Shown in pieces: positions 1 to 15,004 of a stretch of DNA of 64,000 nt. The translations under genes were made by a program, and so were the position numbers. Below the pieces are notes generated by a model. The model did not search any database and was not told the DNA's origin. It worked only from the letters and a program-made list of their open reading frames with translations. Each line of letters opens with the position of its first letter. Position 1 is the first letter of the stretch. The stretch spans positions 186,001 to 250,000 of the forward strand of contig NZ_LAJH01000028.1 in NCBI RefSeq assembly GCF_001292625.1. Reading direction: 5' to 3'. The DNA comes from Shimia sp. SK013 (GTDB taxonomy: Bacteria; Pseudomonadota; Alphaproteobacteria; Rhodobacterales; Rhodobacteraceae).

Positions 1-124
1 TCAGAAGGATCAGGACCAGACCCGTGGCGGTGACCTGATTTGGCGTCAGGCCGGCCTTGACGAGCGGGGTGGACATCGCTTCCCACATTGGGTCGATTTT
101 GGTCTTAAGCAGCCCGTCAATCAT
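1..124 (-). CDS. CDP-alcohol phosphatidyltransferase, N-terminal fragment
   Basis: Only the first 41 codons are in the window; the gene runs off the left edge. The ATG is at 124–122. The peptide contains the phrase AGLTPNQVTATGLVLILL, typical of the region just before the first membrane helix of CDP-alcohol phosphatidyltransferases (PgsA and phosphatidylinositol-phosphate synthase type). The diagnostic DG..AR..G..D..D motif would lie outside the window. It starts 13 bp after the FGGY kinase gene and ends the inositol/sphingoid-lipid cluster, so joining inositol phosphate to a CDP-activated lipid is the natural guess. That substrate is inference; phosphatidylglycerophosphate synthase is an alternative. 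Confidence 0.7.
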   Translation of the reverse strand, partial: MIDGLLKTKIDPMWEAMSTPLVKAGLTPNQVTATGLVLILL

Positions 125-137
125 AGTGAACTCCGTT

Positions 138-1661
138 TCAGGCCGTATAGCTGCGGATCGCGGCGCGGCGTAGTTTCTCGAGGCGCGCGGCGCGGACAGC
201 CAGTGCGTCGACGCGGGCGGAATCCGGTGTGTAATGCGCGTTCGGGCGGCTGCGCAGGCGGGTTGCTGCTTCGGCGGGGGAGGCGGCCCAACCCATCGTT
301 TTGGCGGCAAGCGTTGCAGTGCCCAGCATCCCGGCATGGCGGGTTTCGCCAACGAGGATGTCACGGTTGAGCGCATCGGCCAACATCTGCGCCATTTGCG
401 GATTGGCAGCGCCGCCGCCGACCAGCGTTATCGGACCGGTTTTGCGCAGGCCTTTTTCGCGGCTGATCTTGGACATGGCCCAACGCAGGTTGAGCGCGAC
501 GCCTTCGAGGGCGGCGCGGCGCATGGCCGTGGCATCGTGGTGTAGGGACAGATCAAAGAACGTGCCGCGCAGGGCGTCGTTGTCGACGGGCATACGTTCG
601 CCCGCCAACCAGGGCAGAAAGAACGGGTCATCAGGCTGTGGCGGGCCGAGGTCGTCACCGGGATGAGCGTTGGCGCCTGCGGTGACTTTGGCGGCCCAGT
701 CGAGCGCGGAGCCGGCGTTTTCCTGGCTGGCGATCAAAAGTGGGCGCATGTCGAGGCCCGAAGTCACGGTGGCATAGGAGTAGGGCACGCTGAGGCGGCG
801 GTTGGGGAGGAAACCGGCGATCCAAGCGGAGGTGGCGAGCGAAATGTGCAGCGCGCCGTCTTCCATCTCGCCCGATCCAAGCGCGGCGGCGGTCACATCT
901 GACGTTCCGGCGAGAACCTGAGTGTTTGGCGAGAGGCCGAGTTCGGCTGCAGCTTGCGGCGTGAGCGTGTCGACAAGTGTGTCGGCGGTCACAATAGGCG
1001 CGAGTTTTTCCAGCGGTGCGCCGACGATTTTCGCCAACTGCGGTGACCAACCTTCGCGGCCACTGCGGCTGTCCATCATCCACGACAGGTTGGCGCTTTC
1101 GGGGCTGGTGGTCATCACACCGGTGGCGCGGTGCACAAGCCAGTCTTTGGCGTCGATCAGCCAGCGGGTGCGGTCCATAATCTCTGGCTCGTGGTGGTGC
1201 ATCCACAAGATTTTGGCGGCGGCGTCCATACCGTTTTTGGCAGGCGCGCCATTGGCCAGACGCAGCCAGCGCGCCAGTTTGCCAACCTGATAGCCATGTA
1301 CCTGAGGAAAGCCACCGATCAGGGCTTGCACAAGTGCGCTGCCGCGTTTGTCGAGCCACGTCATGCAGGGCCGCAGGGCGTGGCCGGTTTCGTCCGCGCA
1401 GATCAGGCCGCAAAGTTGGGCGGAAAACACCATAACCGAGGCGCGGTCGCGCAGGTCGGGGATCTGTTGGCGCAGTTCGGCAACGGCGCGGGTCAGGCCG
1501 CCCCACCAATCGTCGGGATTTTGTTCGGCTATGCCGCCAGCGCCAAGTGTCAGGGGATAGGTTTCGGTCACGCGGGCAAGGACATTCAAATCGCCATCCA
1601 CCACACCGACTTTGACGCCGGACGTGCCGAAATCGGCTGAAATAACCAGATCACCTTGCAT
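138..1661 (-). CDS. FGGY-family carbohydrate kinase (xylulokinase-like)
   Basis: A 507-residue sugar kinase of the ASKHA fold. The N-terminal phosphate-binding loop reads SADFGTSGVKVGVVDGD, and near the C terminus LVGGGAANPQMAQMLADAL followed by GMLGTATLAA matches the FGGY signature region. Length is normal for a xylulokinase. The chosen ATG (1661–1659) gives MQGDLVISADFG; an upstream TTG at 1679 is in frame but has no Shine-Dalgarno sequence, while AAGGA precedes the ATG at somewhat long spacing. It lies 87 bp after the PimA-like gene and just before the CDP-alcohol transferase, inside a lipid cluster. It may phosphorylate xylulose or another polyol. A role in headgroup supply is speculation from position only. 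Confidence 0.8.
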   Translation of the reverse strand: MQGDLVISADFGTSGVKVGVVDGDLNVLARVTETYPLTLGAGGIAEQNPDDWWGGLTRAVAELRQQIPDLRDRASVMVFSAQLCGLICADETGHALRPCMTWLDKRGSALVQALIGGFPQVHGYQVGKLARWLRLANGAPAKNGMDAAAKILWMHHHEPEIMDRTRWLIDAKDWLVHRATGVMTTSPESANLSWMMDSRSGREGWSPQLAKIVGAPLEKLAPIVTADTLVDTLTPQAAAELGLSPNTQVLAGTSDVTAAALGSGEMEDGALHISLATSAWIAGFLPNRRLSVPYSYATVTSGLDMRPLLIASQENAGSALDWAAKVTAGANAHPGDDLGPPQPDDPFFLPWLAGERMPVDNDALRGTFFDLSLHHDATAMRRAALEGVALNLRWAMSKISREKGLRKTGPITLVGGGAANPQMAQMLADALNRDILVGETRHAGMLGTATLAAKTMGWAASPAEAATRLRSRPNAHYTPDSARVDALAVRAARLEKLRRAAIRSYTA

Positions 1662-1748
1662 TGCTGCTCTGTCCTTCAAAGTCTTTTTGTGTGCACGAAT
1701 GACTATGTCGGGTCTGACATGACCTTAGCGGGTTTGGCAACCGTTGGT

Positions 1749-2867
1749 TCACCCTAGCGCGCCGTGAAAAAACGCCTCATAGGCTGGGCCGAGATGGCGC
1801 ACGTCATAGTGATCCGCGTGCCCTTTGGCCCATCGCAGAAGTTTGGTTTGAAGCGCCGGTTGGCTTGCAATCTCCAGCAACTTAGCGGCCAAAGCAGAGG
1901 CGTCGCCGGGTGGCACAAGAAGGTCGCTGCCGGAGCCGATCATGACGGTGGCATAGCCGACATTGCTTGCGGCAACCGGCAGGGTGCCAGCGGCCATCGC
2001 CTCGATCAGCACGATGCCGAAGCTTTCGCCATGCAAGGCGGGTGCGGCAAAGACATCTGCATTGGCGATCAAGTCACGAGCGGCGGCGTTGTCAGGTGGC
2101 GGCACAAAGCTAACGGAGTGCAGGTCGAGATCTTTGGCCTGAGCTTGCAAGTCAGCTTTGCAAGGGCCGTCACCGGCAATGGTCAATTGCGCGTCGGGAC
2201 GTTCGGCTTGCACCCCTTGCCACGCGTTTAGAAGCGTGGCGGTGCCTTTGCGCTCTTCCAACCGGCCCATGCAGACCACATGAAATCCGTCATTGGGGGT
2301 GCTGGCATCGCGGGCGGCGCGCCATTTGGACAGATCGATGGTTGGCGCGAGAGTGCCCGGCACGGGGGAAACGTTGTTAGCGCGCCATTGCTCTTGCGGC
2401 GCTTTGGACGGCACCACAATGCCCGCAAGCCGCCGGTTGAACCAATGAGCGGACCGGCGCAAAGCCCAGGCAAGCGGATCAAAGCCGCCGCCGTCGGGCA
2501 AGGTGGCGTGAAAAGTGGCGACCGCCGGAATATCAAGCGCGCGCCAGACCTGAAGCGGCAGCATCGGTGTCCAAGGTGTGTGCAAATGGGCGACTTCGGC
2601 GCCCCAGTCGCGCAGGGATGCAACACAGGACGCGAGGTCGGCCCGATTGGCGCGGGTGAGTTCAAATTTTGTGCCGTGCACGGCGATTTGGCGCACGCTG
2701 CCAAGTTCGATCAACCCGTCGAGATCATTGACCGGCGTATCACCGGGCGGCGCAACAATACGTACGTCATGGCCTTGGGTACGCAGCCAGCCGGTCAGGT
2801 CGCGGATGTGGCTTTGCACGCCGCCGGGGCGGTCCATGGCGTAGGGAGTCAGCTGAACGATTTTCAC
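1749..2867 (-). CDS. PimA-like GT4 glycosyltransferase (putative inositol-lipid glycosyltransferase)
   Basis: A 372-residue GT-B retaining glycosyltransferase. The N terminus (TPYAMDRPGGVQSHIRDL, residues 7–24) and the C-terminal ESFGIVLIEAMAAGT (281–295) closely recall mycobacterial PimA, the phosphatidylinositol mannosyltransferase. Expected donor-binding positions are present: R202 and K207 in GRLEERKG, and the EX7E pair E281/E289. ATFHA at 117–121 matches the PimA active-site histidine segment. The GTG start overlaps the upstream permease stop by 4 bp. With an inositol-phosphate synthase and CDP-lipid enzymes in the same cluster, glycosylation of an inositol lipid on the inner leaflet is a good inference. 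The sugar and acceptor are unknown. Confidence 0.78.
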   Translation of the reverse strand: MKIVQLTPYAMDRPGGVQSHIRDLTGWLRTQGHDVRIVAPPGDTPVNDLDGLIELGSVRQIAVHGTKFELTRANRADLASCVASLRDWGAEVAHLHTPWTPMLPLQVWRALDIPAVATFHATLPDGGGFDPLAWALRRSAHWFNRRLAGIVVPSKAPQEQWRANNVSPVPGTLAPTIDLSKWRAARDASTPNDGFHVVCMGRLEERKGTATLLNAWQGVQAERPDAQLTIAGDGPCKADLQAQAKDLDLHSVSFVPPPDNAAARDLIANADVFAAPALHGESFGIVLIEAMAAGTLPVAASNVGYATVMIGSGSDLLVPPGDASALAAKLLEIASQPALQTKLLRWAKGHADHYDVRHLGPAYEAFFHGALG

Positions 2868-4009
2868 GAGACTTGCTTTCGATCGACAGGCGAGGCGCGG
2901 AACAAATACCCCGCGTGCCGCAGTTGTAAGAGGCAGGCAATCGCGAAGGCAATTGCCAAGGGCAGGGCCGCAGACAGTTCCGGCGCTATCCGGCCGTTGA
3001 TGCCCAATATGAGGAAGGATTTCACAACCACTACAGACAGATATCCCGCTGCTGCGAGTGACAGCAGGCGCGGTGCATTGAGGCGATGGCCCCTGATGCC
3101 TGCCTGCGCCAAGGACGCTCCAAGCAGCACAAAAATGCCCGGCAACAAGAGAGCGGCTTTGCGGAAGGCCAATACCGTTGCGGCGTCAGAGGCTGCCGCG
3201 GTGCCGCTAAGTTGAACAATATCGCGGGCAACGGCATTGGGCAGGTAATAGCCATGCACATCATACCATTGCAGCTGCGTTGCTCTCAGCGGCAGCGCCA
3301 TTGTCAAACTGTCGGAGTGGACCGGAGCAAAATCCGTGTCTTGCGTCCAGAGAGTCACGTTTTGCAGGTCCCACAGACCGGTGGTTGGGTCTGGCAGGGC
3401 CGAGTCGGCCTCAATCAGGCGGGAGAGGGTCGGCTCGGACAGGCCTTCGAAGATTTTGAGAGACTCCAGTCGGCCGGAGTCGCCGCGAATGATATTGGTG
3501 CGTAGGGCCATGTCGTTGTCGAGAATCCATTGGCTGTCCAGACGGGACCCGCCAAACCAGCGGCCGTACCGGCCCAATTGCGTTTCGACTTGGGCTTTTA
3601 CGGCCACCGGGCGCAGCCAATTCTGAAATCCGAATTGCACGCTGCCGACAACGAGCGCGACGGCCAGAAGGGCCGAAAAATGCACGCGCGGCGACATGCC
3701 AGCGGCGCCAAGCACCACATCCTCGCGCCGCAGATGCCGCAATAAAACAGCAACAAATCCGCCGACCACGCAGGCGGTGCCGAGAAGGCGGGTGATAATA
3801 TCGGTTGCCCGATAAGAGGCGTAAGGTAGCAACAGACGCCACAGCGGAGTGTCGGTCGCATCCGCTTTGGCGCGCAGACTCTCGAGGGTTTTTCCCAAGT
3901 CGATGGACAGTGCAATCACCAGCAGCGCAAAGATGACAAACCCGATTGCTTGCAGATAACTGCGCATCATCATCCGCATGGCGATGCCGGTATGGGCACG
4001 CAGGTTCAA
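2864..4009 (-). CDS. LptF/LptG-family permease (first of a pair)
   Basis: A 381-residue membrane protein of the YjgP/YjgQ (LptF/LptG) family: helices at the N terminus, a soluble periplasmic domain around residues 150–275 containing polar segments such as LRTNIIRGDSGRLESLKIFE, and a C-terminal helix bundle. The TTG start overlaps the previous permease stop by 4 bp; an ATG at 3979 would give a more typical short N terminus (MRMMMRSYL). LptFG normally drive LPS extraction with LptB. Here the pair sits in a lipid-synthesis cluster without lptD or surA, so a second, lipid-specific copy is likely. Substrate is inferred. Confidence 0.75.
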   Translation of the reverse strand: MNLRAHTGIAMRMMMRSYLQAIGFVIFALLVIALSIDLGKTLESLRAKADATDTPLWRLLLPYASYRATDIITRLLGTACVVGGFVAVLLRHLRREDVVLGAAGMSPRVHFSALLAVALVVGSVQFGFQNWLRPVAVKAQVETQLGRYGRWFGGSRLDSQWILDNDMALRTNIIRGDSGRLESLKIFEGLSEPTLSRLIEADSALPDPTTGLWDLQNVTLWTQDTDFAPVHSDSLTMALPLRATQLQWYDVHGYYLPNAVARDIVQLSGTAAASDAATVLAFRKAALLLPGIFVLLGASLAQAGIRGHRLNAPRLLSLAAAGYLSVVVVKSFLILGINGRIAPELSAALPLAIAFAIACLLQLRHAGYLFRASPVDRKQVS

Positions 4010-5133
4010 AGGTCGCGCGCCGCCGGTTTCATCAGCGCCTCCTTTCTGAGGGCAAGAAACAGCAGCGGAGGCGCGAGGTAGAGAAGCACAGAAAGTACGG
4101 CGATGGATTGTTCAGGCAGCGCGTTGATCCAGCCGACGACGGTGGCGCGGCTGGCCACGTCGATGGATAGCATCAAGACCCCCGACAACGGCAGAGCCAG
4201 AAGGCGGGTCAGGGGGCTGCGGGCGGCGACCAACGCCGCCAACGCCAGAAGTCCGGCAAGCGGCACCATCAAAGCGCGGGTGGCAATGTTTGTGATGCGC
4301 TGGGTCTGGCCCTGAGTCACCGCAAGAAATATTTCTGCAGCGCTGCGCTCGCGATTGACGTCAGGAGTGACCTTGGACATGTCAAACGTGAAGTCCGCTG
4401 CTGCGACTTCGTAGCGGTTCATGAATGCAGGCGTTGCGGGGGGCGAAAGTGGCACTTCGTGGACAGCTAATTTTTGCAGGACGATGACGTGATTGTCGTG
4501 ATCCTTGGCGTTGATTTGCCAGTTGCGCGACGTGGCTGCGCGCCAAAAGCCGTTCACGTCGGGTTGAAACACAAACAGATTGCCGTTGTGATCGGGGTTG
4601 CCGTTCTTTGAGGGGGTGGACACAAAGGTTGTGTCTTCGATGGTTTGCAATGCCGTCTTGTCGCCAGGCGCCTGGATGCGGTTCAACACGTAATCTTTGC
4701 GCAACTCAGCCACCGTGACACGTTCGGAAAATTTGGCGAGAGGCAGGACAAAGCCTGCGTTCAACAAGCTGAGCAGACCGCCGGACAACCCGATGCCGAG
4801 GACCAGCGTCACCACCCGCCACCACGGAATGCCGGCCGTGGCCAAAACCACAAGTTCGCCGTTGTCGCGGGCTTCGCCGACCGCAAAATAAACAGCGATC
4901 AAAAGGCCAAAGGCCAGCGCCAGATCAAATATCGCGGGCATGCGAAAGATCAACATTTGACCAATCACGGATACGGGGCCGTCCAGCCGCAGCGCAAGTT
5001 GCAGCAGGCCAGTGAACTCTTCAGCCAGAAAAATCGCCTCGATCACTGCCAGAATCAGCAACAACCGCCACAGGATCGGCCAGCCAATGATGCGCAACAC
5101 CGGTTGGCGCAGGAAGGTTTGGTGCAGACTCAT
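4006..5133 (-). CDS. LptF/LptG-family permease (second of a pair)
   Basis: A 375-residue inner-membrane permease of the LptF/LptG family. It has N-terminal helices, a family-typical stretch GEARDNGELVVLATAGIPWW (about residues 80–99), a periplasmic domain, and hydrophobic C-terminal helices. I start it at the ATG at 5133 (MSLHQTFLRQPV). A much longer in-frame reading to 5406 runs antisense-like through the CdsA gene and has a low-complexity non-membrane N terminus, so it is rejected. It lies 40 bp downstream of cdsA and overlaps the next permease by 4 bp. Together the two would form a heterodimeric transporter requiring an LptB-like ATPase encoded elsewhere. Confidence 0.78.
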   Translation of the reverse strand: MSLHQTFLRQPVLRIIGWPILWRLLLILAVIEAIFLAEEFTGLLQLALRLDGPVSVIGQMLIFRMPAIFDLALAFGLLIAVYFAVGEARDNGELVVLATAGIPWWRVVTLVLGIGLSGGLLSLLNAGFVLPLAKFSERVTVAELRKDYVLNRIQAPGDKTALQTIEDTTFVSTPSKNGNPDHNGNLFVFQPDVNGFWRAATSRNWQINAKDHDNHVIVLQKLAVHEVPLSPPATPAFMNRYEVAAADFTFDMSKVTPDVNRERSAAEIFLAVTQGQTQRITNIATRALMVPLAGLLALAALVAARSPLTRLLALPLSGVLMLSIDVASRATVVGWINALPEQSIAVLSVLLYLAPPLLFLALRKEALMKPAARDL

Positions 5134-5173
5134 GAGGGGATAGTCCCTGTCTGGGGACCTGCTGGCAAGTCGA

Positions 5174-6064
5174 TCAGCACAGAGCCGCCACAATATGAAG
5201 CGCGGTAAGTCCGGCGCCAGCGGCGATCCAGCTGTCGAGGCTGTCCAAGAGCCCGCCCTGACGGGCGAGGACAACCGGGAAATCTTTGACGCCGCCAATG
5301 CGTTTGAGGCGCGAGGCGGAGAGATCGCCGGCGACAGCCAGCAGACCGACAAGCAGCGCGACGCCGCATGATAACAACAAGGGTTGGTCCAGAACGAGCG
5401 CGCCAAGCGCGGTGATCACAATCAAGCACAGAGCGCCGCCCACAAGGCCTTCGACGGTTTTGTTCGGGCTGAGCGTCGGGAAAGCCTTGGTGCGGCCGAA
5501 GAGTTTTCCCGAGAGCAGCGCGAGGCTGTCAAACACCTCGACCAGAATGTAGGCGGCGAGGATCAGCCCCGCGAGATCCGCTTGCACCGCGCCATGGGCC
5601 AAAAGCGCAAAGGGCAAGATCGGGAACACAAGCATGTCGAGGATGGATTTAGAAGTGCGCGGATTGGAGGCGTTGGGCAATATCACCAGCCGCGCAAACA
5701 ACAACAGCCAGACGCCAAGCACAGCAACCGCAAGGCGGGCGTCAAGGATGGCGGCGACGGTGAGACCGGTGCTGAGCAATCCGATCAACAGCGGCGCTGG
5801 CCCGTCTGGCATGCGCACGGCGGCGGATTCCACCCCGATGCGAAGGGCTGCCAGACCCAACGCAGGAATAAGCACCGGATTGCCGATCAAAAACAGCGCC
5901 ACAAGCACGCAGATGATCACGGTGGCGCTAAAAAAAACCTTGAGCAACTCGATCCCGACGGCGCGGCGTGCTGGGATCAGGGCAACAGTCGTAAGCAGAA
6001 CATAGCCGACAAGCACAAGCGTGCCAGCGGTCATCGCCATGTCTGTTACGTGGAGCGGTGTCAT
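5174..6064 (-). CDS. CdsA-like phosphatidate cytidylyltransferase
   Basis: A 296-residue multi-helix membrane enzyme that would make CDP-diacylglycerol, or a CDP-activated ceramide-like lipid, from CTP and a phospholipid acid. The C-terminal signature GKLFGRTKAFPTLSPNKTVE matches the CdsA S-x-FG-x-T-K…SP-K-KT-x-EG pattern. It starts with ATG overlapping the SDR stop by 4 bp, so it is translationally coupled. The essential housekeeping cdsA of alphaproteobacteria usually sits between uppS and dxr, so this is probably a second, pathway-specific copy; that cannot be checked in this window. It would feed the CDP-alcohol transferase at 1–124. Confidence 0.82.
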   Translation of the reverse strand: MTPLHVTDMAMTAGTLVLVGYVLLTTVALIPARRAVGIELLKVFFSATVIICVLVALFLIGNPVLIPALGLAALRIGVESAAVRMPDGPAPLLIGLLSTGLTVAAILDARLAVAVLGVWLLLFARLVILPNASNPRTSKSILDMLVFPILPFALLAHGAVQADLAGLILAAYILVEVFDSLALLSGKLFGRTKAFPTLSPNKTVEGLVGGALCLIVITALGALVLDQPLLLSCGVALLVGLLAVAGDLSASRLKRIGGVKDFPVVLARQGGLLDSLDSWIAAGAGLTALHIVAALC

Positions 6065-6861
6065 TTTCGGCGGTGCTTTTTGATAATGCGGCGTTGGTGC
6101 CAGCGCAGAACCGGCGCAAGCAGACTGGAGAGCGCGCCAAGCGCGGTCATTTGGGCGCCGGTGGCCGCGGTGGCGCGGCCTGCGTCCATGGCCTTGAGCA
6201 AGCGTTCTGCTACGTCTTGTGGTTTCCAGAGGCCGCCGCCTTCGCCGATTTCGGCGGTGGCTGGAGGCTTGGTAAGGTTCTCCGAGGCCAACATCGCCGT
6301 TTCGGTGTCAGACGGATGCAGCACCGTGACCGAAATGTCGGCTTCTGCCAGTTCCAGATGCAGCACTTCGCCCAATCCAGAGAGGGCGAATTTGGATGGG
6401 GCATAGGCGCTGTAGCCGTAGATGCCGAAAAACGCCGCAACGGAAGAGACCAACCCAAGTCGCCCTCCGCCGTTGGCGCGCATCGGGTCGACCAGCGCGT
6501 GGGCGAAATAGAGCGCCCCGAAGTAGTTCACCGCCATATGGCGTTCGTGGGTGTCCAGTGGTTGTTCAGTAAAGAGGCCCGGTTCTGAAATGCCCGCCGA
6601 GGCGATAGCATAGTCCGGCGCGCCCATGCTGCGGACAGCTTCGGATACGGCTGCGGTGATCTCGGTGCGGCTGGAGACATCCACAGCAAATTCCCGCACG
6701 GTCACATCCGGGGATTTTGACAGGATGATTTCACGCGCGGCGGCGAGTTTACCGGGGTCGCGGGCGAACAATGCAATGTCGTGGCCCCGGGCTGCGAGCT
6801 GAAGGGCCGTTTCAAGGCCGATGCCGCTTGAGCCGCCAGTGACGAAGGCCGGACCGGGCAT
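6061..6861 (-). CDS. KDSR-like short-chain dehydrogenase (putative 3-ketosphinganine reductase)
   Basis: A 266-residue classical SDR: cofactor loop TGGSSGIG at 8–15, N112, active-site S139/S140, Y153 and K157 in YAPSK. The C-terminal half carries HPSDTETAMLASENLTKP, which closely parallels the PPDTDTPGFAEENRTKP segment of eukaryotic 3-ketodihydrosphingosine reductase (KDSR/Tsc10). A final hydrophobic/basic tail (WHQRRIIKKHRRK) could anchor it to the membrane. With a serine-palmitoyltransferase-like gene in the same operon, reduction of 3-ketosphinganine to sphinganine by NADPH is the best prediction. Gene gap to ino1 is 2 bp. A generic SDR on another lipid ketone is the alternative. Confidence 0.8.
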   Translation of the reverse strand: MPGPAFVTGGSSGIGLETALQLAARGHDIALFARDPGKLAAAREIILSKSPDVTVREFAVDVSSRTEITAAVSEAVRSMGAPDYAIASAGISEPGLFTEQPLDTHERHMAVNYFGALYFAHALVDPMRANGGGRLGLVSSVAAFFGIYGYSAYAPSKFALSGLGEVLHLELAEADISVTVLHPSDTETAMLASENLTKPPATAEIGEGGGLWKPQDVAERLLKAMDAGRATAATGAQMTALGALSSLLAPVLRWHQRRIIKKHRRK

Positions 6862-6863
6862 TA

Positions 6864-7979
6864 TTAGTCCTCGATCCCGTTCGCGAAGTTGACGATCACG
6901 TCGTGGGCGTCGGTGTCTTCGATCTGTTCAGGCGGATGTTTGAAGAGAAAGGCAGAGGCGTCCGCGATTGGACCGGACAATCCGCGATCACACGCGATGC
7001 GGGCCAAACGAATGGCCACCAGTGCCTCGGCGGCGGCGTTGGGGCTGTCCTCGACATCCAAACGCACCTCGATGTTGGTGCGGGCGCCACCGAACAAGCG
7101 GCCTTCGAGCCGCACATAGGCCACTTTGCGGTCATTGAGCCACGGCACGTAGTCCGAGGGGCCGATGCGAATGTCGTTCTCGTCCAGACGCTCTTCCATC
7201 ACGGCTTGCACGGCTTCGGTTTTGCTTTCGCGCTTGTTCGCTAGGCGGGCGTTTTCGCTCATGTTCAGGAAGTCGGTATTGCCGCCGACGTTGAGTTGAT
7301 AGGTGCGATCGATTTCGACGCCGCGCATCTCGGCGAGGTTGGCCAAGGTGCGGTGTACGATTGTTGCGCCAAACTGTGCTTTGAAGTCGTCGCCAAGGAT
7401 CGGGATGCCAGCATTGGTGAATTTCTCCGCCCACACAGGGTGGGAGGCGATGAACACAGGAATGCCGTTGACCACGGCGACGCCGGCCTCAAGCGCGCAT
7501 TCAACGTAAAATTCGACGGCCTTTTGCGATCCAACAGGCAGGAAGATGATCATCACCTCGGCCCGCAGGTCGCGCAGTTTGGCAACAATCTCGTCTTTGC
7601 TCAGGGCAGGCTCCGCCGACAAACGGAAGCTGCGATCTTCGGGTTTGGCCAGCATGTGCGCGGCGACGCCATCGAGATCAGGTCCGCGCAGCACAGGTCC
7701 GGTTTGATCGCTGACGTCGGTGTGAAACTGTTCAGTGCAGTTGGGCGGCGCAAAAGCGGCCTCTGCCAGAGTGGTGCCCACTTTGCGTGAATCCACGTCG
7801 AAACCGGCCACCAGTTCAATGTCGGAGGGTGTATAGCCCGCCAGATCGGGAAAGCTGACCCCGATCGCGGCATCGCCGACTGCACGGCAGTAGGACACGC
7901 CTTGAATGAGTGAACTCGCGCAGTTTCCAACCCCCACAATAACGGTGCGGATCAGTGTTTTGGTCTCATCAGTAGTCAT
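6864..7979 (-). CDS. ino1: inositol-3-phosphate synthase
   Basis: A 371-residue NAD-dependent lyase/isomerase converting glucose 6-phosphate to 1D-myo-inositol 3-phosphate. The Rossmann start IVGVGNCASSLIQG lies at residues 14–27. The catalytic domain carries GGNTDFLNM and later IGPSDYVPWLNDRKVAY, both hallmarks of the short prokaryotic/actinobacterial Ino1 class. The ATG overlaps the stop of the DUF4833-like gene by 4 bp, and the KDSR-like gene follows after 2 bp. Ino1 is uncommon in proteobacteria. Its presence among lipid genes points to inositol used as a phospholipid or sphingolipid headgroup rather than as a carbon source. Confidence 0.93.
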   Translation of the reverse strand: MTTDETKTLIRTVIVGVGNCASSLIQGVSYCRAVGDAAIGVSFPDLAGYTPSDIELVAGFDVDSRKVGTTLAEAAFAPPNCTEQFHTDVSDQTGPVLRGPDLDGVAAHMLAKPEDRSFRLSAEPALSKDEIVAKLRDLRAEVMIIFLPVGSQKAVEFYVECALEAGVAVVNGIPVFIASHPVWAEKFTNAGIPILGDDFKAQFGATIVHRTLANLAEMRGVEIDRTYQLNVGGNTDFLNMSENARLANKRESKTEAVQAVMEERLDENDIRIGPSDYVPWLNDRKVAYVRLEGRLFGGARTNIEVRLDVEDSPNAAAEALVAIRLARIACDRGLSGPIADASAFLFKHPPEQIEDTDAHDVIVNFANGIED

Positions 7980-8587
7980 TCGCGGAAGGCTCCACCGGAT
8001 ACGGCAATTGTGTGTGTGGAATACTGGCCCGTCTTCGGGTCAGACGTGTAAAGGCGCAATCGCACAACTCTTGGCAATAGCCCGCTTTCATCCACGTCCA
8101 GATATCCATAGATCATTTCAATGTCGCGCCCGTTTTGCCGTGTATAAAGCGTCGCGTCAAAGGGTCCGTTCTGCTTGAGCAGCAATTGTTCGCTTTTTAT
8201 GCCATTAAACCGCACTTCAAAGCCCGTTCCGTCAGCAAGTGCGCGGGATTTGGTGCCAAATCCAAACATGCGCTCGTACCACCGGAAGGCCATCACATGG
8301 CCGCGGCCTGCAAACCGGCGCCAATAGCCGGTGATCGGACGGTCGGGATTCAAGAGCCCATCTTGGTCAAATTGCGCCACCCAAACGATGGTGTTGGCGT
8401 TGGTGTTGCGTTGCAGGAAAAAGACCTGATGGCGGTCGTTGGGGTGCTGAAAGGCGGGATTGGCCGATGGCAGTGTGGCGCTTGTGGTGGTGGATACGAC
8501 AGTCAGCCGCGGTTTGGCTGACAGGTCAGACGCTGACAGCAAAACGCCCATTACTATTAGCCAACAGAAAGTCGCAAGTCGGCACAT
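7976..8587 (-). CDS. secreted DUF4833-like protein of the inositol-lipid cluster
   Basis: Product of about 203 residues from the ATG at 8587 (MCRLATFCWLIVMGVLL), which gives a signal-peptide-like N terminus ending near ASDLSA. A GTG at 8620, 5 bp after the upstream stop, would add 11 residues; neither start has a convincing Shine-Dalgarno sequence. The mature part has VFFLQRNTNANTIVWVAQFD, then NPDRPITGYWRRF and GTKSRALADGTGFEVRF. I associate this pattern with DUF4833 from memory. It has no catalytic motif I can name. Its stop overlaps the ino1 start by 4 bp, which ties it to inositol-lipid metabolism. It may act in the periplasm as a lipid-binding or headgroup-processing factor (inference). 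Confidence 0.6.
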   Translation of the reverse strand: MCRLATFCWLIVMGVLLSASDLSAKPRLTVVSTTTSATLPSANPAFQHPNDRHQVFFLQRNTNANTIVWVAQFDQDGLLNPDRPITGYWRRFAGRGHVMAFRWYERMFGFGTKSRALADGTGFEVRFNGIKSEQLLLKQNGPFDATLYTRQNGRDIEMIYGYLDVDESGLLPRVVRLRLYTSDPKTGQYSTHTIAVSGGAFRE

Positions 8588-8625
8588 GTCGGGCGTGAGG
8601 TTGAACTTGGCGATGTGCACAAGGG

Positions 8626-9852
8626 TTATTCCGCACTGATCCTGTTGCGCAGCGCGCGCGCGGCGGAACCGGCCTCGGTCACAGCGGTGATCACGCGGTC
8701 GATATCTGCCTCGGTGTGGGTTTCCGAGATGAAAAACCGGATGCGCGGCAGATCTTTGGGCACGCCGATGTGGACCACAGGCGGCGCATAGATGCCTTGT
8801 TGCATCAAGGCTTCGGCGACAAAAACGCAGTCTTCGGGGGTGTCGAAAAGAATGGGCACCACGGCCTCGCCAATGGCGGTGCCGGTGTTCAGGCCAGCGT
8901 CGCGGGCGCGGCGCAGGAACCGGCGGGAGTTGCCGCGCAGACGTGTTACACGGTCTGGTTCAGCGCGCAAAATGTCGAGCGCCGCATGCGCGGAGGCGAC
9001 GGTGGCCGGCGCGAGGCCCACGGAATAGACAAATCCGGGCAGGCAGAAGCGCATCCATTCGATTACGTCCGCATTGGCCGCAATGAAGCCGCCGGAGGAT
9101 GCAAAGCTTTTGGACAGGGTGCCAATGGCGACGTCAACGCGATTCGGATCCACCCCGAAGTGTTCACAAGATCCACGCCCGGTGGGGCCAAGCACGCCGT
9201 AGCTGTGGGCTTCGTCCAGCAACAGCCAACAATCGGTGCGCTCTTTGATGTCGAGCAGACGCGGCAGGTCTGTCACGTCGCCGTCCATCGAAAACAGCCC
9301 TTCGGTGCAGATGAGAACACGGGAATAACTGTCGCGTTTTTCGGCAAGAATGCGTTCAAGGTCGTCGAGATCGTTGTGCGCGTAGGTCACAAGATCGGAT
9401 TTCACGCCACGCGCGCCGACCATGATGGAATTGTGCGCCAATTCATCCACAATCACGAGGTCCTTGGGACCAAGCAGCAGCTGAATCACCGACACGTTGG
9501 TGAGATAGCCGGAAATCACCGACAGGGTGCCGCCAACGCCCAAAAATTCAGCCATACTGCGTTCCAGAGCCTGATGACCAAGACGTTCGCCGCCCACAAG
9601 GCGCGAGGCGCCGGCGCCAGTGCCAAGTGCATCAATGGCCGCTTTTGCAGCGTCGGTGGTGACCGGGTGATGCGCCAGACCCAAGTAGTCGTAGTGCGAC
9701 ATTGAAAGATAGCCGTCTTTCCATTCGTCGGAGCGGGCCTCTAACGCGTCTGTTGGCACGAAATACGGATGTCCGTTTTCGATCAAAGCCTTACCGCTCA
9801 GGCGAAACCGTCGGTCCGCATAGCAAAGAAAGCTGTTGTCTGTGTTAGTCAT
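8626..9852 (-). CDS. spt: serine palmitoyltransferase-like alpha-oxoamine synthase
   Basis: A 408-residue PLP enzyme of the alpha-oxoamine synthase family, which condenses an acyl thioester with an amino acid and loses CO2. Motifs: GTGAGASRLVGG (77–88), H140 in DELAHNS to stack on PLP, DEAHSYGVLGPTGRG (213–227), and the Schiff-base lysine K248 in GTLSKSF. BioF, KBL and HemA share the fold, so the motif alone does not fix the substrate. The KDSR-like SDR four genes on favours serine plus palmitoyl-CoA or acyl-ACP. GGAG sits 6 bp before the ATG. It is the first gene of the minus-strand lipid operon. Confidence 0.82.
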   Translation of the reverse strand: MTNTDNSFLCYADRRFRLSGKALIENGHPYFVPTDALEARSDEWKDGYLSMSHYDYLGLAHHPVTTDAAKAAIDALGTGAGASRLVGGERLGHQALERSMAEFLGVGGTLSVISGYLTNVSVIQLLLGPKDLVIVDELAHNSIMVGARGVKSDLVTYAHNDLDDLERILAEKRDSYSRVLICTEGLFSMDGDVTDLPRLLDIKERTDCWLLLDEAHSYGVLGPTGRGSCEHFGVDPNRVDVAIGTLSKSFASSGGFIAANADVIEWMRFCLPGFVYSVGLAPATVASAHAALDILRAEPDRVTRLRGNSRRFLRRARDAGLNTGTAIGEAVVPILFDTPEDCVFVAEALMQQGIYAPPVVHIGVPKDLPRIRFFISETHTEADIDRVITAVTEAGSAARALRNRISAE

Positions 9853-10290
9853 TGTCGTCTCCGTTTGCGGAGCGGCCGAAATCTTACAGCCAAATTATTG
9901 AAATTTTGTACGTTCCGTAAACGGGCATCAAGCTGAGGGCTCCGTCCGCAATATGACCGTTAACGACTTGCGGGTCTAGAGAGTTACGTTACGAAATTGG
10001 TATCAAATAGCCGCATCTGCTCAGGTGGCGCAGTATCAGGCAGTTTTTGGTGCAGGGTCGTCTTTTGCGGCGATACCAAGACCGGACAGTTAAGTCGGGG
10101 CGGAGTTTGGGTTTGTGTGAAGGCGACCAAGAAGCGGGCGCGGCGGCGCGGCGGTGCTCTTTTTCACTCGTTTTCCTGCGGTTGGGATGCGCGAGACGCT
10201 TGCGACAATGCAATTAATCATGTTCACTCCGACAGGCGTTCTTTGAAGCAATTCGATAGAGATTGCGGGGCGCGACAGGGGAAAACTGGC
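9853..10290. other. divergent intergenic region, lipid operon / ABC importer
   Basis: 438 bp between two divergently transcribed operons. It must hold both promoters. Short in-frame extensions of the ABC ATPase (back to 9997) cross this region but have an unlikely composition and are not counted as coding. No repeat, RNA gene or strong terminator was seen. AGGGGA at 10277–10282 is the ribosome-binding site of the importer ATPase. Confidence 0.5.
9894..9921 (-). promoter_or_regulatory. candidate promoter of the lipid operon
   Basis: On the minus strand, AATAAT (9899–9894, five of six matches to TATAAT) lies 16 bp from TTTACG (9921–9916, four of six matches to TTGACA), about 45 bp upstream of the spt ATG. 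The surrounding DNA is the most AT-rich in this intergenic stretch. Assignment by eye only. Confidence 0.3.
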
Positions 10291-12069
10291 GTGACGGCAC
10301 TTTTGACGGTGGAAAATCTGACAATTGGCTTCGGCGATGCCGCGCCGGTGGTGAACGATGTCAGTTTCTCGGTGCGGCGTGGTGAAACGCTGGCGCTTGT
10401 CGGGGAAAGTGGCTCGGGCAAGACGCTGAGTTGTCGCGCGGCCTTGCGTATTTTGCCAGGCGCAGCACAGATGCGGTCCGGGAAAATCACGCTGGCGGGC
10501 CGTGAGGGTGCGACGGACGTGGATTTGATGTCCATGAGCGAGCGGCAGATGTGCAACGTTCGCGGCGAACGTATTTCGATGATCTTTCAGGAGCCGATGC
10601 GCTCTTTGTCGCCGTTGCACCGGATTGGCAATCAGGTGTCTGAAGTGCTGCGGCTGCACAAGAAAATCAGCAAGGCCGAACGCGTCAAAAGGGTTATGGC
10701 GATGTTTGAGCGCGTGGGTTTCAAAGACCCGCAGCGCATTTTTGACAGCTATCCTTTTGAGCTGTCTGGCGGAATGCGTCAGCGCGCGATGATCGCGATG
10801 GCGATGGTGGGCCGACCTGACGTGCTGATTGCGGATGAGCCGACAACCGCGCTGGACGTGACCACGCAAGCGCAGGTTTTGGGGCTGATCAAGGATTTGC
10901 AGGCCGAATACGGCATGGCCGTGGTGTTGGTGACGCACGATCTGGGTGTGGTTGCGAATATGGCCGACAGCGTCGTGGTGATGAACCGCGGCCGCGTGAT
11001 GGAAGCTGGACCTGCGCCACTTATTTTGAACGATCCCAAGCATGGGTATACCCGTGATCTGATGGCGGCGGCGCCGGAAATTCCGGCAACCATTCCGGCA
11101 TCCAAGCGCGAAGAAGACCGCGACTACATTCTGGAAATGCGCGACGTGAGCAAAACCTATGTGCTCAAGGGCAGTTCTGCGTGGAAGCCCAAGTCGGTCA
11201 TTCAAGCTGTCCGCGGTGTGAATTTTGGCGTGGAGCGTGGCAAGACGTTGGCCGTGGTTGGCGAAAGTGGCTCTGGCAAGACCACAACGGCGCAAATGGC
11301 GCTGGGCGCCGAAGTTGCGGATGCGGGATCATCGATCCTGTTCCGGGCCGAAACGGGCGGCGAGGCGGTCAATCTGCAGGGCCTCGACAAAGCCGAGCGG
11401 CTGGCGTTTCAACGCAAGGCACAGATGGTGTTTCAGGACCCTTATTCGACCCTGAACCCGCGCATGCGCGTCAAGGAAGCGCTGGTGGAGCCGATGGAAA
11501 TCCACGGCGTTGGGTCGGTCAGTGATCGTATCGAGCGGGCCGCCGAAATGCTGCGTTGGGTGGGGTTGGGTGAAAATATGCTGACCCGCTATCCACACGC
11601 CTTTTCCGGTGGGCAACGCCAGCGCCTGTCCATCGCCCGCGCGCTAATGCTGGGGCCGACGTTTTTGGTGTGCGATGAACCGACCTCTGCTTTGGATGTG
11701 TCCGTTCAAGAGCAGGTTTTGCAGCTGCTGGAAGACATCCGCGACCGGTTGAACCTGAGCTATCTGTTTATCAGCCATGACCTTGCCGTGGTGGCACGTA
11801 TTGCCGATGAAGTGGCGGTGATGAGGTCCGGTCTGGTGGTGGAGCAAGGCCCCCCAGCGGTGCTGTTTCATGATCCGCAACATCCCTACACCAAGGCATT
11901 GATCGCGGCCCAGCCGGAGCCGGACATCAACCGCCCGATTGATCTCAACATCGTGTCGCAGGGGGCCGGCGAGCCCTCAAGCTGGCCTGATGCATTCCGT
12001 TTTGACGGTCTGGAGGTTCCGCCGCTGACGGAGACCGGACCCAACCACAAGGTGCGTTGTTATGTTTAA
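10291..12069 (+). CDS. peptide-type ABC importer, fused double ATPase (YejF-like)
   Basis: A 592-residue protein with two complete nucleotide-binding domains, equal to fused OppD and OppF. First domain: Walker A GESGSGKT 38–45, Q-loop Q100, signature LSGGM 158–162, Walker B VLIADEP 178–184. Second: Walker A 324–331, signature FSGGQ 438–442, Walker B FLVCDEP 458–464. I use the GTG at 10291 because AGGGGA lies 8 bp upstream and the domain starts at once; the upstream frame to 9997 looks non-coding. It overlaps the binding-protein gene by 8 bp. It would energise uptake of an oligopeptide or related solute through the two permeases downstream. Confidence 0.9.
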   Translation: MTALLTVENLTIGFGDAAPVVNDVSFSVRRGETLALVGESGSGKTLSCRAALRILPGAAQMRSGKITLAGREGATDVDLMSMSERQMCNVRGERISMIFQEPMRSLSPLHRIGNQVSEVLRLHKKISKAERVKRVMAMFERVGFKDPQRIFDSYPFELSGGMRQRAMIAMAMVGRPDVLIADEPTTALDVTTQAQVLGLIKDLQAEYGMAVVLVTHDLGVVANMADSVVVMNRGRVMEAGPAPLILNDPKHGYTRDLMAAAPEIPATIPASKREEDRDYILEMRDVSKTYVLKGSSAWKPKSVIQAVRGVNFGVERGKTLAVVGESGSGKTTTAQMALGAEVADAGSSILFRAETGGEAVNLQGLDKAERLAFQRKAQMVFQDPYSTLNPRMRVKEALVEPMEIHGVGSVSDRIERAAEMLRWVGLGENMLTRYPHAFSGGQRQRLSIARALMLGPTFLVCDEPTSALDVSVQEQVLQLLEDIRDRLNLSYLFISHDLAVVARIADEVAVMRSGLVVEQGPPAVLFHDPQHPYTKALIAAQPEPDINRPIDLNIVSQGAGEPSSWPDAFRFDGLEVPPLTETGPNHKVRCYV

Positions 12070-13966
12070 GAAAACTCTGTTGGCCGCGGTCATCGGGGCA
12101 ACAACTGGCATGTTGGCCACCGTGGCGGTGGCGCTGGACCCGATCGAAGGCGCGTTCTGGAAACAGGAAGTTGATGCCGGCAACCTGCCGCCCGTGGCAG
12201 AGCGGTTGCCAAGCGTGCCGTTGGTTCCGGATCTTGAGCTGCGCGGCCGCAAGCTGGGCACGCCAGGTGGCACCATGCGCACCATGGTGACCCGCGCCAA
12301 AGATGTGCGCCAAATGGTGGTGTATGGCTATGCGCGGCTGGTGGGCTACAACGAGCGCTATGAGATTGTACCAGACATTCTGCAGAGTCTGGACAACGAG
12401 AACGACGTAAAATTCACCATGCATTTGCGCCCCGGACACAAATGGTCTGACGGGCATCCTTTTACCTCGGAAGACTTCCGGTACTGGTGGGAGGACGTGG
12501 CGACCAATGACTTGCTGTCGCCGTCAGGCCCTATCGATTTTATGCGGGTCGAAGGGCGGTTGCCGACTGTGTCATTCCCGGATGAACACACGGTTGTCTA
12601 TGAGTGGCACAAGCCCAACCCACAGTTTTTGCAGAAACTGGCAGAAGCGCGGCCGCCGTTCATTTACCGGCCTGCGCATTTTCTGAAGCCGCTGCATGCG
12701 GATTATGCCGATGAAGAAACGCTGACCGAGGCGCTTTATGAGGCGCGGGTGCGCAGCTGGGCGGCGTTGCACAATCGCAGCGATAATATGTACAAGTTCG
12801 ACAATCCTGAACTGCCGACTTTGCAGCCTTGGATGCTGGCCACCAAAGATGGCAAAAGCAGGTTCCTGTTTGTGCGCAATCCCTATTACCACCGCATTGA
12901 TTTCAACGGCGTGCAGTTGCCTTACATTGACGTGGTTGAAATGCAGGTCGTCGCGCCGGGTCTTGTGGCCGCTAAGGCCAACGCCGGTGAAGTGGATCTG
13001 CAGGCGCGTGGGCTTGATTTCAAAGACACTGCGATCCTGAAAAAGGGCGAAAACTCTGGTGAGTACAAAACCTTTTTGTGGGGCAATGGTACCGCATCGC
13101 AAATCGCGATTTATCCAAACCTGAACTACAACGACGATTTGTGGCGCGAAACAATGCGCGACGTCCGGTTCCGCCGCGCTCTGTCACTGGGGATCAATCG
13201 CAAGATTATCAACAGAGGTCTTTATTTCGGTCTGGCCAAAGAAGGTGGCATGGCTGTGCTGCCGATCAGCCCGTTTTACCGTGAAGAAAACCGCAAAGCA
13301 TGGGCCGCATATGATGTGGATCAGGCCAATGCGTTGCTGGACGAGATGGGGCTAACGGAGCGTGACAAAGACGGCACACGGTTGTTGCCGGATGGGCGCC
13401 CAGCGTGGATCGTGGTGGAAACTGCGGGTGAGCGGCAAGAGGTCGAGAACGCGCTGCAGATCATCATCGACAATTGGAAAGACCTTGGCATCAAGCTTTT
13501 GATGCGTCCGTTGGAGCGCGACATCCTGCGCAACCGGGTGTATTCAGGCGAGACGATGGCAGCGGTCTGGTTTGGCTGGGACAATGGTATTCCGCAGTCC
13601 TATACCTCGCCGGATTATGTGGCACCCTGGCGGCAGGAGTTCTTTGCCTGGCCGAAGTGGGGCCAATATCATCAAACCAGCGGAGACAGTGGCGAGCCGC
13701 CTGACATTGCCCCTGCGATCAAGCTCAACGAACTGGCGCATCAATGGGCGCGTGCATTTTCCGCCGTTGAACGCGGGACTCTCTGGCAGGAAATGGTCGA
13801 TATCCATGCGGAAAACGTCTTTGCGATAGGTGTTTTGAACAGTGCGCCGCAGCCGGTGGTCGTGTCCAACCGTTTGCGCAACGTACCGGAAAAGGCGATC
13901 TGGGCCTGGTCGCCCGGTGCACATTTCGGCGTGTATCGCGTCGATGAATTTTACTTTGCGGAATAG
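12062..13966 (+). CDS. ABC importer periplasmic binding protein (SBP family 5, YejA-like)
   Basis: A 634-residue family-5 solute-binding protein. The N terminus MFKKTLLAAVIGATTGML is a signal peptide, with cleavage probably after the ALA-like segment near residue 23. The body has the family phrases YARLVGYNERYEIVPDI, LRPGHKWSDGHPFTSEDF and RFRRALSLGINRKIIN. Length fits YejA-type peptide-binding proteins. Its ATG lies 8 bp inside the ATPase gene. The ligand cannot be read from sequence; peptides, opines or a larger glycopeptide are possible. Confidence 0.88.
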   Translation: MFKKTLLAAVIGATTGMLATVAVALDPIEGAFWKQEVDAGNLPPVAERLPSVPLVPDLELRGRKLGTPGGTMRTMVTRAKDVRQMVVYGYARLVGYNERYEIVPDILQSLDNENDVKFTMHLRPGHKWSDGHPFTSEDFRYWWEDVATNDLLSPSGPIDFMRVEGRLPTVSFPDEHTVVYEWHKPNPQFLQKLAEARPPFIYRPAHFLKPLHADYADEETLTEALYEARVRSWAALHNRSDNMYKFDNPELPTLQPWMLATKDGKSRFLFVRNPYYHRIDFNGVQLPYIDVVEMQVVAPGLVAAKANAGEVDLQARGLDFKDTAILKKGENSGEYKTFLWGNGTASQIAIYPNLNYNDDLWRETMRDVRFRRALSLGINRKIINRGLYFGLAKEGGMAVLPISPFYREENRKAWAAYDVDQANALLDEMGLTERDKDGTRLLPDGRPAWIVVETAGERQEVENALQIIIDNWKDLGIKLLMRPLERDILRNRVYSGETMAAVWFGWDNGIPQSYTSPDYVAPWRQEFFAWPKWGQYHQTSGDSGEPPDIAPAIKLNELAHQWARAFSAVERGTLWQEMVDIHAENVFAIGVLNSAPQPVVVSNRLRNVPEKAIWAWSPGAHFGVYRVDEFYFAE

Positions 13967-13975
13967 GACGATCTG

Positions 13976-15004
13976 ATGGCGATGCTGCGCTTTGCAGTCT
14001 TTCGATTAATTACGATGCTGAGCACGCTGATGGTGGTCTCGGTGTTCGTTTACGCGATTATCAATCTTCCGCCGGGGGATTTCCTGTCCAATCAGATCAA
14101 CGAGCTGCGCGCGACGGGACAGTCGGCGGGCATCGCGAAAGCGGAGTTCCTGCGTCAGGAATTCTCGATGGATCAGCCGATCTGGAAGCAATACATGATC
14201 TGGGTAGGGCTTGTGCCTGGTCCGCATGGGTTTGCGGGCATGTTGCAGGGTGAATTCGGGTGGTCGTTCGAATTTGACAAGCCGGTGAGCGAGCTGGTGG
14301 GTGGCGCGTTGTGGATGACCATTTTGGTCAACCTTGCGGCGGTTGTTTTCATCTATGCGGTGGCGTTGCCTCTTGGAGTTTTGGCCGCGGCGCGGTCCAA
14401 GACGTGGATCGATTATACCTCGGCATTTGTTGGCTATCTCGGCCTTGCGACGCCGAACTTCTTGCTGGCGTTGATCTTGTTTTACTACGGAAACCGCTAT
14501 TTGAACCTGCCCATTGGCGGGCTGATGGACCCGAAATTTGAAGGCGAGCCGATGTCGTTTGAAAAAATGAAATCGGTGTTGATCCACCTGATCATTCCGA
14601 CCTTTGTGATTGGCACATCCGGCGCGGCAGGGATGATGCAGCGTCTGCGGGCGAACCTGTTGGACGAGTTGGGCAAGCCTTATGTGGAAACCGCGCGCGC
14701 CAAAGGCATGCGCGAAAGCTCGATGTTGGTTAAGTACCCGTTGCGGGTGGCGTTTAACCCTTTTGTTGCCGACATCGGCACGTTGATTCCCTCGCTGGTA
14801 TCAGGCTCGGTTCTGGTGTCTGTGGTGCTTGGGTTGCAGACCATCGGGCCCGTGTTGTTGCAGGCGCTGAAATCGCAGGATGTGTTCTTGTCGGCGTTCG
14901 TGTTGATGTTTGTGGCGTTGCTGACCTTGATTGGCACCTTGGTGTCGGATCTGTTGCTGGCCTTGTTGGACCCCCGAATTCGGTTCGGAGGGCGTGAGCG
15001 ATGA
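13976..15004 (+). CDS. ABC importer inner-membrane permease (YejB/OppB-like)
   Basis: A 342-residue permease. The N terminus is the OppB-type transmembrane helix, then PPGDFLSNQINELRATGQ, a periplasmic loop, and five or so helices. The cytoplasmic EAA-type coupling segment is YVETARAKGMRESSMLVKYP. Starts 9 bp after the binding-protein stop and overlaps the next permease by 4 bp (ATGA). It pairs with the YejE-like permease to form the membrane channel of the importer. Confidence 0.9.
   Translation: MAMLRFAVFRLITMLSTLMVVSVFVYAIINLPPGDFLSNQINELRATGQSAGIAKAEFLRQEFSMDQPIWKQYMIWVGLVPGPHGFAGMLQGEFGWSFEFDKPVSELVGGALWMTILVNLAAVVFIYAVALPLGVLAAARSKTWIDYTSAFVGYLGLATPNFLLALILFYYGNRYLNLPIGGLMDPKFEGEPMSFEKMKSVLIHLIIPTFVIGTSGAAGMMQRLRANLLDELGKPYVETARAKGMRESSMLVKYPLRVAFNPFVADIGTLIPSLVSGSVLVSVVLGLQTIGPVLLQALKSQDVFLSAFVLMFVALLTLIGTLVSDLLLALLDPRIRFGGRER

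Follow-up and report, generated by a model that had tools for sequence, protein, structure and literature searches.

A ten-gene operon at the left edge of a window from the alphaproteobacterium Shimia sp. SK013 probably serves to make a glycosylated inositol phospholipid and to export it, with a sphingoid anchor probable in most carriers of the gene set. The window is the whole stretch of DNA analysed, 64,000 nucleotides of contig NZ_LAJH01000028.1 (G000:C28:186001-250000, G000 being the organism's own genome), and coordinates are window positions unless a locus number (L) is given. Pfam and NCBIfam models revealed ten minus-strand genes, all co-directional, running from 9852 past the left window edge and encoding, from 5' to 3', a serine palmitoyltransferase (SPT)-like protein, a DUF4833 protein, Ino1, a short-chain reductase (SDR), a CdsA-like protein, LptF-like and LptG-like permeases, a GT4 glycosyltransferase, an FGGY-family kinase and a CDP-alcohol transferase (CDP-AP1). 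Every gene named in a preliminary description of this DNA was recovered in the run. That description gave the junctions as gaps of 2–13 bp or 4-bp overlaps, which holds for seven of the nine: 5 bases separate the SPT-like gene from that for DUF4833, 2 separate Ino1 from the SDR and 13 separate the FGGY kinase from CDP-AP1, whilst 4-base overlaps join DUF4833 to Ino1, SDR to CdsA, LptF to LptG and LptG to GT4. The two exceptions are the gaps of 40 bases between CdsA and LptF, whose start was taken at 5133 instead of 5406, and of 69 bases between GT4 and the FGGY kinase.

The inositol half of the pathway is well supported by sequence comparison. Ino1 (6864–7979, 371 aa, PF01658), the predicted myo-inositol-3-phosphate synthase, matched a single NCBIfam model, the mycothiol-type TIGR03450, at 376 bits, under that model's cut-off of 638. 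Only the start of CDP-AP1 (1–124, PF01066) falls in the window; the gene runs from window position 124 to about −511, ending at G000:C28:185489, and a complete copy is found at L002 17489-18124. We aligned CDP-AP1 with the PDB stretch of the Mycobacterium tuberculosis phosphatidylinositol phosphate (PIP) synthase PgsA1, for which the inositol-phosphate pocket is named in PMC6506517, our source for the residue roles, as R94, S132, K135, R137, R152, R155 and R195. All seven residues are present in the protein from the window, and 9 of the 12 CDP-AP1 rows aligned have the full set, the other three showing a gap at R195. The catalytic core D-DG-A...G-D-D is present in the window protein and 11 relatives, with Ser for Ala in L216. 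A second CDP-AP type of the relatives lacks R94, S132 and R155 in 6/6 rows, and R195 in the four rows aligned there. Ino1 together with a PIP-synthase-type enzyme bearing a complete inositol-phosphate pocket thus agrees with the inositol lipid synthesis proposed at the outset. The CdsA-like CTP transferase (5174–6064, 296 aa, PF01148 at 5e-34) is a putative CDP-lipid synthase, and Pfam matching of the ten genes, the extent of this search, gave no Aur1-like inositol phosphorylceramide (IPC) synthase. Similar pairs were observed further afield: in the Nitrospirota-type metagenome-assembled genomes (MAGs) at L090, L094, L100, L105, L115 and L136, a same-strand CDP-AP follows Ino1 within ~160 bases by alignment edges. 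Six Nitrospirota-type MAG CDP-APs share the inositol-phosphate pocket, with Arg for K135, and a seventh, L055, aligned in its first half only; these pairs are probably plain inositol phospholipid pathways.

Glycosylation of the inositol is suggested by the GT4 protein (1749–2867, 372 aa). Against the PDB, PimA scored 134 bits over residues 1–355 of 372 and PimB-type enzymes came next at 54 bits, making PimA the closest solved relative over the full length and bearing out the PimA-like glycosyltransferase first proposed. This comparison supports a PimA-like assignment, the use of GDP-mannose and phosphatidylinositol (PI) being putative.

The SPT-like protein (8626–9852, 408 aa, PF00155) is an alpha-oxoamine synthase that falls under every curated SPT, BioF and KBL cut-off. 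Searched against solved structures, it matched SPT (3a2b) first at 219 bits, followed by KBL at 209, BioF/KBL at 191 and BioF at 181. In a maximum-likelihood tree of 51 rows, the protein and its 41–47% identical relatives stand next to yeast LCB2 (98/93), and in a second of 39 rows they group with yeast, human and Arabidopsis LCB2 with the same support (98/93). The larger tree leaves out L209 (at a contig end), both pieces of the SPT of G100, and G104, which has no locus; the smaller holds 9 of 13 window-clade sequences, 9 of 12 from the 41–47% group and 10 of 15 canonical SPTs, plus KBL, 5-aminolevulinate synthase and references. BioF forms a long branch of unsure placement, as does yeast a branch of unsure placement in the 51-row tree. 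The 39-row tree does not settle how the LCB2-like group, canonical SPT and KBL branch relative to one another, against 92/70 for a single SPT side in the larger tree. The PDB output gives molecule names only, and the chains are presumably from yeast, human, Arabidopsis, Sphingobacterium, M. tuberculosis and Archaeoglobus. The genome had no match to NF047599 at 1e-100, whilst 16 of 142 class genomes pass the cut-off of that model. We therefore rejected an identity as canonical bacterial SPT or as BioF/KBL; a grouping with the latter, named beforehand as what would refute the proposed operon function, did not occur, and the evidence supports a eukaryotic-LCB2-like SPT with putative serine condensation.

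The SDR (6061–6861, 266 aa) found its best solved match in the 3-ketodihydrosphingosine reductase (KDSR) TSC10 at 82 bits, with the next SDR at 73. The eukaryote-like reductase of the preliminary description stands to that extent, with a modest margin that leaves the KDSR assignment the weaker of the two. SPT and SDR genes adjoin each other also as a divergent pair at L153, apart from the Ino1 block, and in L067, from another family. Elsewhere in the family, the SPT-like genes at 41–47% identity from L231 (1327-2685), L233 (1453-2802), L234 (1444-2805) and L236 (1435-2790) follow a polyketide synthase (PKS) KR-ACP end by Pfam in 4/4 loci; these are apparent PKS-sphingolipid clusters of the SgaAB type. 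SgaB has SPT activity, measured for PfSgaB with L-serine, and the Pseudomonas SgaAB products include dihydrosphinganines (PMC12134224).

Export is suggested by a second LptF/LptG pair. The genome holds a canonical pair at C9, scoring 210 and 198 bits against PF03739, and the cluster pair (LptF-like, 4006–5133; LptG-like, 2864–4009) scored 76 and 68 bits, so that the LptF/LptG-like genes noted earlier are confirmed as second copies. The DUF4833 protein (7976–8620, 214 aa, PF16117) has one N-terminal hydrophobic stretch, judged by eye to be an apparent signal peptide, and its AlphaFold model (pLDDT 89) is all-beta. It is probably exported and is a candidate periplasmic partner of LptFG. A phosphosphingolipid region in Caulobacter has LptC2/F2/G2, a candidate flippase and the CdsA-like CC_1161, which is thought possibly to form an activated ceramide from ceramide-1-phosphate (PMC11324152).

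These genes recur together more than expected by chance. Among 295 genomes of the family, Ino1 is present in 12, CDP-AP1 in 11, every one among those 12, and SPT at at least 62% identity in 9, all likewise within the 12, with one copy split over two contigs. The order DUF4833-Ino1-(SDR)-CdsA-LptF-LptG is kept in 10 of the 11 other Ino1-bearing family genomes, answering the check on gene order that had been proposed for related genomes. Among the 21 full or partial carriers tabulated, all chosen for having Ino1, the steadiest block within the family is DUF4833-Ino1-CdsA-LptF-LptG. CDP-AP1 was found in 10/10 genomes (our own included) and is adjoined by the FGGY gene in all ten, even where the pair sits apart from the Ino1 block. 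Among named loci the nearest are four Shimia records and one Pseudopelagicola record, with Ino1 at 80–87% identity. Records from Stappia, Aestuariivirga, Bradyrhizobiaceae and Phyllobacteriaceae, which lie outside the family, hold some of these genes, as does G433, likewise from a different family. Ino1 itself is more widespread, at 31 of 385 genomes of the class, and in the twelfth Ino1 genome of the family, G291, it lies in an unrelated gene context (L025 9137-11122, ~59% identity). A further 12 family genomes carry the SPT-like protein at 41–47%, of which only G095 has Ino1.

Some relatives hold inserted genes. An NTP-transferase gene and a Stealth-family gene were seen at L016 (6411-7259 and 8369-9406), L018 (14454-15970 and 17055-18017) and L074 (16024-17608 and 18743-20785), and the inserts of L018 and L074 also include the second CDP-AP type, which lacks the inositol-phosphate pocket. 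These genes may add further phospho-decoration to the lipid. No NTP-transferase, Stealth-family or second-type CDP-AP gene was seen near the window cluster.

From the assignments that sequence supports, namely those of Ino1, CDP-AP1 and the PimA-like enzyme, the SPT with its LCB2 affinity, the weaker KDSR and the duplicate LptFG, we infer a route including its reaction order, phosphatase, anchor, sugar, export and the parts played by the FGGY kinase and DUF4833. SPT and the TSC10-like reductase would yield a dihydrosphingosine-type base, probably serving in most carriers as lipid anchor via a CDP-activated ceramide or sphingoid phosphate. The cluster CdsA would turn a lipid phosphate into CDP-lipid, which CDP-AP1 would couple with inositol phosphate to give lipid-phospho-inositol-phosphate; removal of the phosphate would then fall to a phosphatase of the PgpA type, here the housekeeping enzyme and in some relatives one encoded in the cluster. 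The PimA-like GT4 would put a sugar on the inositol, an ABC exporter encoded next to the operon would flip the product, and the second LptF/LptG, with DUF4833 as a possible LptC-like partner, would carry it toward the outer membrane. In its fullest form the route would take a bacterium all the way to an exported glycosyl-inositol-phospho-sphingolipid: a PIP-synthase-type enzyme joins inositol phosphate to CDP-ceramide or a CDP-sphingoid base with no Aur1 transfer, a PimA-like enzyme adds the sugar and a dedicated Lpt-like path exports the product; that the whole holds is possible but doubtful. Glycosyl inositol phosphoceramides occur in plants and fungi, to which such a lipid would be analogous, by different chemistry. 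If true, the LCB2-like SPT and KDSR-type reductase would represent a branch within bacteria that stands closer to the eukaryotic enzyme than the canonical bacterial SPT does.

The phosphatase step deserves separate mention. BT_1525, a PIP phosphatase that has been characterised, belongs to the PgpA family (PMC9246714). In L074 and L079 a gene of this family sits between CdsA and LptF on the opposite strand, and in L081 one comes immediately behind a CDP-AP; these observations favour a PgpA-type enzyme at this step. The in-cluster PgpAs of L074 and L079 share 50% identity, and 31–38% with the genomic PgpAs compared. A 171-aa gene at L078 518-1033 had no Pfam match.

Several observations weigh against the proposed pathway. 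By Pfam, the window cluster has no PgpA-type PIP phosphatase and the genome only one PgpA, at C9. An extra PgpA specific to carriers was considered and rejected, as all 11 carriers hold one each; of the 15 non-carriers, a single PgpA is present in 13, a single one with a weak second in another, and none in the last. The FGGY kinase (138–1679, 513 aa, PF00370/PF02782), always beside CDP-AP1, has no obvious place in the pathway, and a fold search with the model of DUF4833, the candidate LptC2-like partner, gave no clear match. The best NCBIfam model for the SPT-like protein is BioF (322 bits, below cut-off), and it scores 278, 272 and 201 bits against three SPT models with cut-offs of 640, 500 and 670. 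A cluster-linked ceramide synthase was not found. PF04339, presumably the family of Caulobacter CC_1154, occurs in 25 of 26 family genomes, in 11/11 carriers and equally in 14/15 non-carriers, with one gene in our genome, at C13; it was rejected as a cluster-linked ceramide synthase on these grounds. Beyond the window, the block at L017, L071 and L073 ends after LptG with no GT4 beside it, FGGY-CDP-AP1 lying outside the fetched stretch, and other families of the class yielded 20 fetched Ino1 loci, among which L067 (from G433) alone has the gene set. Within the fetched stretches, L078, L079 and L080 have an SDR and no SPT, and L078 and L080 no LptFG, the rest of these genomes not having been searched.

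Two genomes bear directly on the anchor. G246 carries the inositol, glycosyltransferase, LptFG, FGGY and CDP-AP1 genes. A search of its whole genome (95% complete) at E 1e-10 gave no match to SPT, and its fetched stretch of 20 kb holds no SDR. In G095 the sole SPT and SDR are a divergent pair of neighbours at L153, elsewhere in the genome from its Ino1 block. Because of these two cases, the headgroup genes do not appear to need a sphingoid base. G246 also shows no alpha-oxoamine synthase match of any kind at E 1e-10, not even 5-aminolevulinate synthase, whose absence is unusual for an alphaproteobacterium and may be a gap in the 95% complete assembly. The inositol (sphingo)lipid of the preliminary description is therefore upheld in its inositol lipid genes, whilst the placing of inositol on a sphingoid base does not find the same support, in view of G246, of PF04339 being shared by carriers and non-carriers and of the ten genes having no Aur1-like IPC synthase. 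The sphingoid half is supported by its sequences but separable from the inositol half, and an anchor of this kind is likely in most carriers.

The same observations bear on an alternative in which ordinary diacylglycerol (DAG) anchors the inositol glycolipid, as in phosphatidylinositol mannosides (PIMs), whilst SPT and SDR make a separate sphingolipid sharing the operon or the exporter. G246 and G095 are what this would predict, as is G152, where SPT lies ~180 kb from the Ino1 block, and in Bacteroides both PIP-DAG and PI-DAG come from the same myo-inositol phosphate synthase (MIPS)/PIP synthase route (PMC9246714). We regard it as unlikely, if deserving of serious attention, given that SPT at at least 62% identity is confined to Ino1 genomes (9/295) and that SPT at at least 58% lies inside the cluster in 13 of the 21 tabulated carriers. 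The anchor might instead be an amino-alcohol that is made independently of serine or is not N-acylated, such as a 1-deoxy base or a free one, rather than a ceramide. The family-wide spread of PF04339, with no cluster-linked ceramide synthase, is in keeping with this, as are the neighbouring-group relatives that follow PKS genes in the manner of Pseudomonas SgaAB (4/4 loci; PMC12134224), but the reported activity of PfSgaB with L-serine argues in the other direction, the SgaB identity of the group here being putative, and we consider such a base improbable.

A soluble inositol product, either a mycothiol-like thiol or a di-inositol-phosphate osmolyte, is very improbable. The mycothiol type of the one NCBIfam model matched by Ino1 hints at the former, and the top PDB match of the CDP-AP, a bifunctional inositol-phosphate cytidylyltransferase/DIPP synthase ahead by half a bit, at the latter. 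However, GT4 matches PimA and scores only 50 bits against the MshA model (cut-off 462), on which ground a mycothiol pathway was rejected, and the DIPP synthase lacks K135 and R195, both present in CDP-AP1, the two pocket differences on which the DIPP osmolyte was rejected. By Pfam, no NTP-transferase-type (inositol-phosphate) cytidylyltransferase is present among the ten genes, and CdsA and LptFG point to a lipid. An exported glycosylated inositol phospholipid, in most carriers probably on a sphingoid anchor, is the reading that we favour.

The flanks of the operon also hold candidate membrane functions. Next on the contig after CDP-AP1 are, by Pfam, a convergent FRAG1/DRAM/Sfk1-family gene (L002 16743-17522) and the ABC exporter (L002 15019-16746), which recur in part of the relatives; the FRAG1/DRAM/Sfk1-family membrane gene, convergent to CDP-AP1, was observed in 11 of the 21 carriers by tblastn and in L067 by Pfam. 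In eukaryotes this family includes lipid-asymmetry and glycosylphosphatidylinositol-remodelling proteins. On the other side, a divergent peptide-type ABC transporter operon (9997–15004) begins beside the SPT gene, and the same peptide-transporter genes (71–95% identity) adjoin the cluster in L015, L018 and L069, three of the 11 relatives compared.

Few bacteria have inositol lipids, which until Bacteroidetes were added were believed to be mostly confined to Actinobacteria and spirochaetes (PMC9246714). In Novosphingobium acidiphilum, an alphaproteobacterium, the same source notes a lipid resembling an inositol sphingolipid, with no gene cluster to account for it. The present operon, as a third gene set and one linked to Lpt, would be a testable alphaproteobacterial candidate for such lipids, its occurrence in N. 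acidiphilum being hypothetical. An LCB2-like bacterial SPT would also bear on how eukaryotes acquired sphingolipid synthesis. How sphingolipids reach the outer membrane is stated as not known (PMC11324152), and a second LptFG with a new periplasmic partner would, if true, offer a lead. Among the matches listed for the open-licence PMC literature, no title or abstract describes this gene set or a Rhodobacteraceae inositol sphingolipid. In Rhodothalassium, a related alphaproteobacterium, dihydroceramides and an SPT gene are reported, with inositol unmentioned in the available text (PMC11762602).

Compared with known systems, the operon combines parts that are otherwise found apart. It resembles BT_1522-1526 of Bacteroides thetaiotaomicron (PMC9246714, PMC8791184) in having Ino1/MIPS and a PIP-synthase-type CDP-alcohol transferase, with a PgpA-type phosphatase in some relatives of the operon; the ten genes lack the Aur1-like IPC synthase (BT_1522) and the GtrA gene described there, and add SPT, the KDSR-like SDR, CdsA, the PimA-like glycosyltransferase, FGGY, LptFG and DUF4833. 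A KDSR-type step is itself already known in Bacteroides and Prevotella (PMC12134224). With CC_1168-CC_1152 of Caulobacter crescentus (PMC11324152) it shares SPT, a second LptF/LptG, a CdsA-like gene and a candidate flippase, but that region has a ceramide kinase and phosphoglycerate chemistry, inositol is unmentioned in the main text of the source, and its AcpR-dependent SPT and CerR contrast with the LCB2-like SPT and KDSR-like SDR here. The Pseudomonas SgaAB/SgaC system differs in its iterative-PKS acyl chain, and the available text of PMC12134224 mentions no inositol, CDP-lipid or Lpt genes. The actinobacterial PIM pathway (Ino1, PgsA1, PimA) follows the same logic from Ino1 through PIP synthase to a PimA-like glycosyltransferase, whereas the present operon lies in an alphaproteobacterium and carries Lpt-type permeases, SPT and the KDSR-like SDR. 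The gene set was initially called distinct partly for its LptFG, which on its own does not set it apart, as LptF2/LptG2 are present in the Caulobacter region too, together with a CdsA-like gene (PMC11324152); what looks distinct is the combination of the sphingoid and Lpt genes with Ino1, PIP synthase and PimA.

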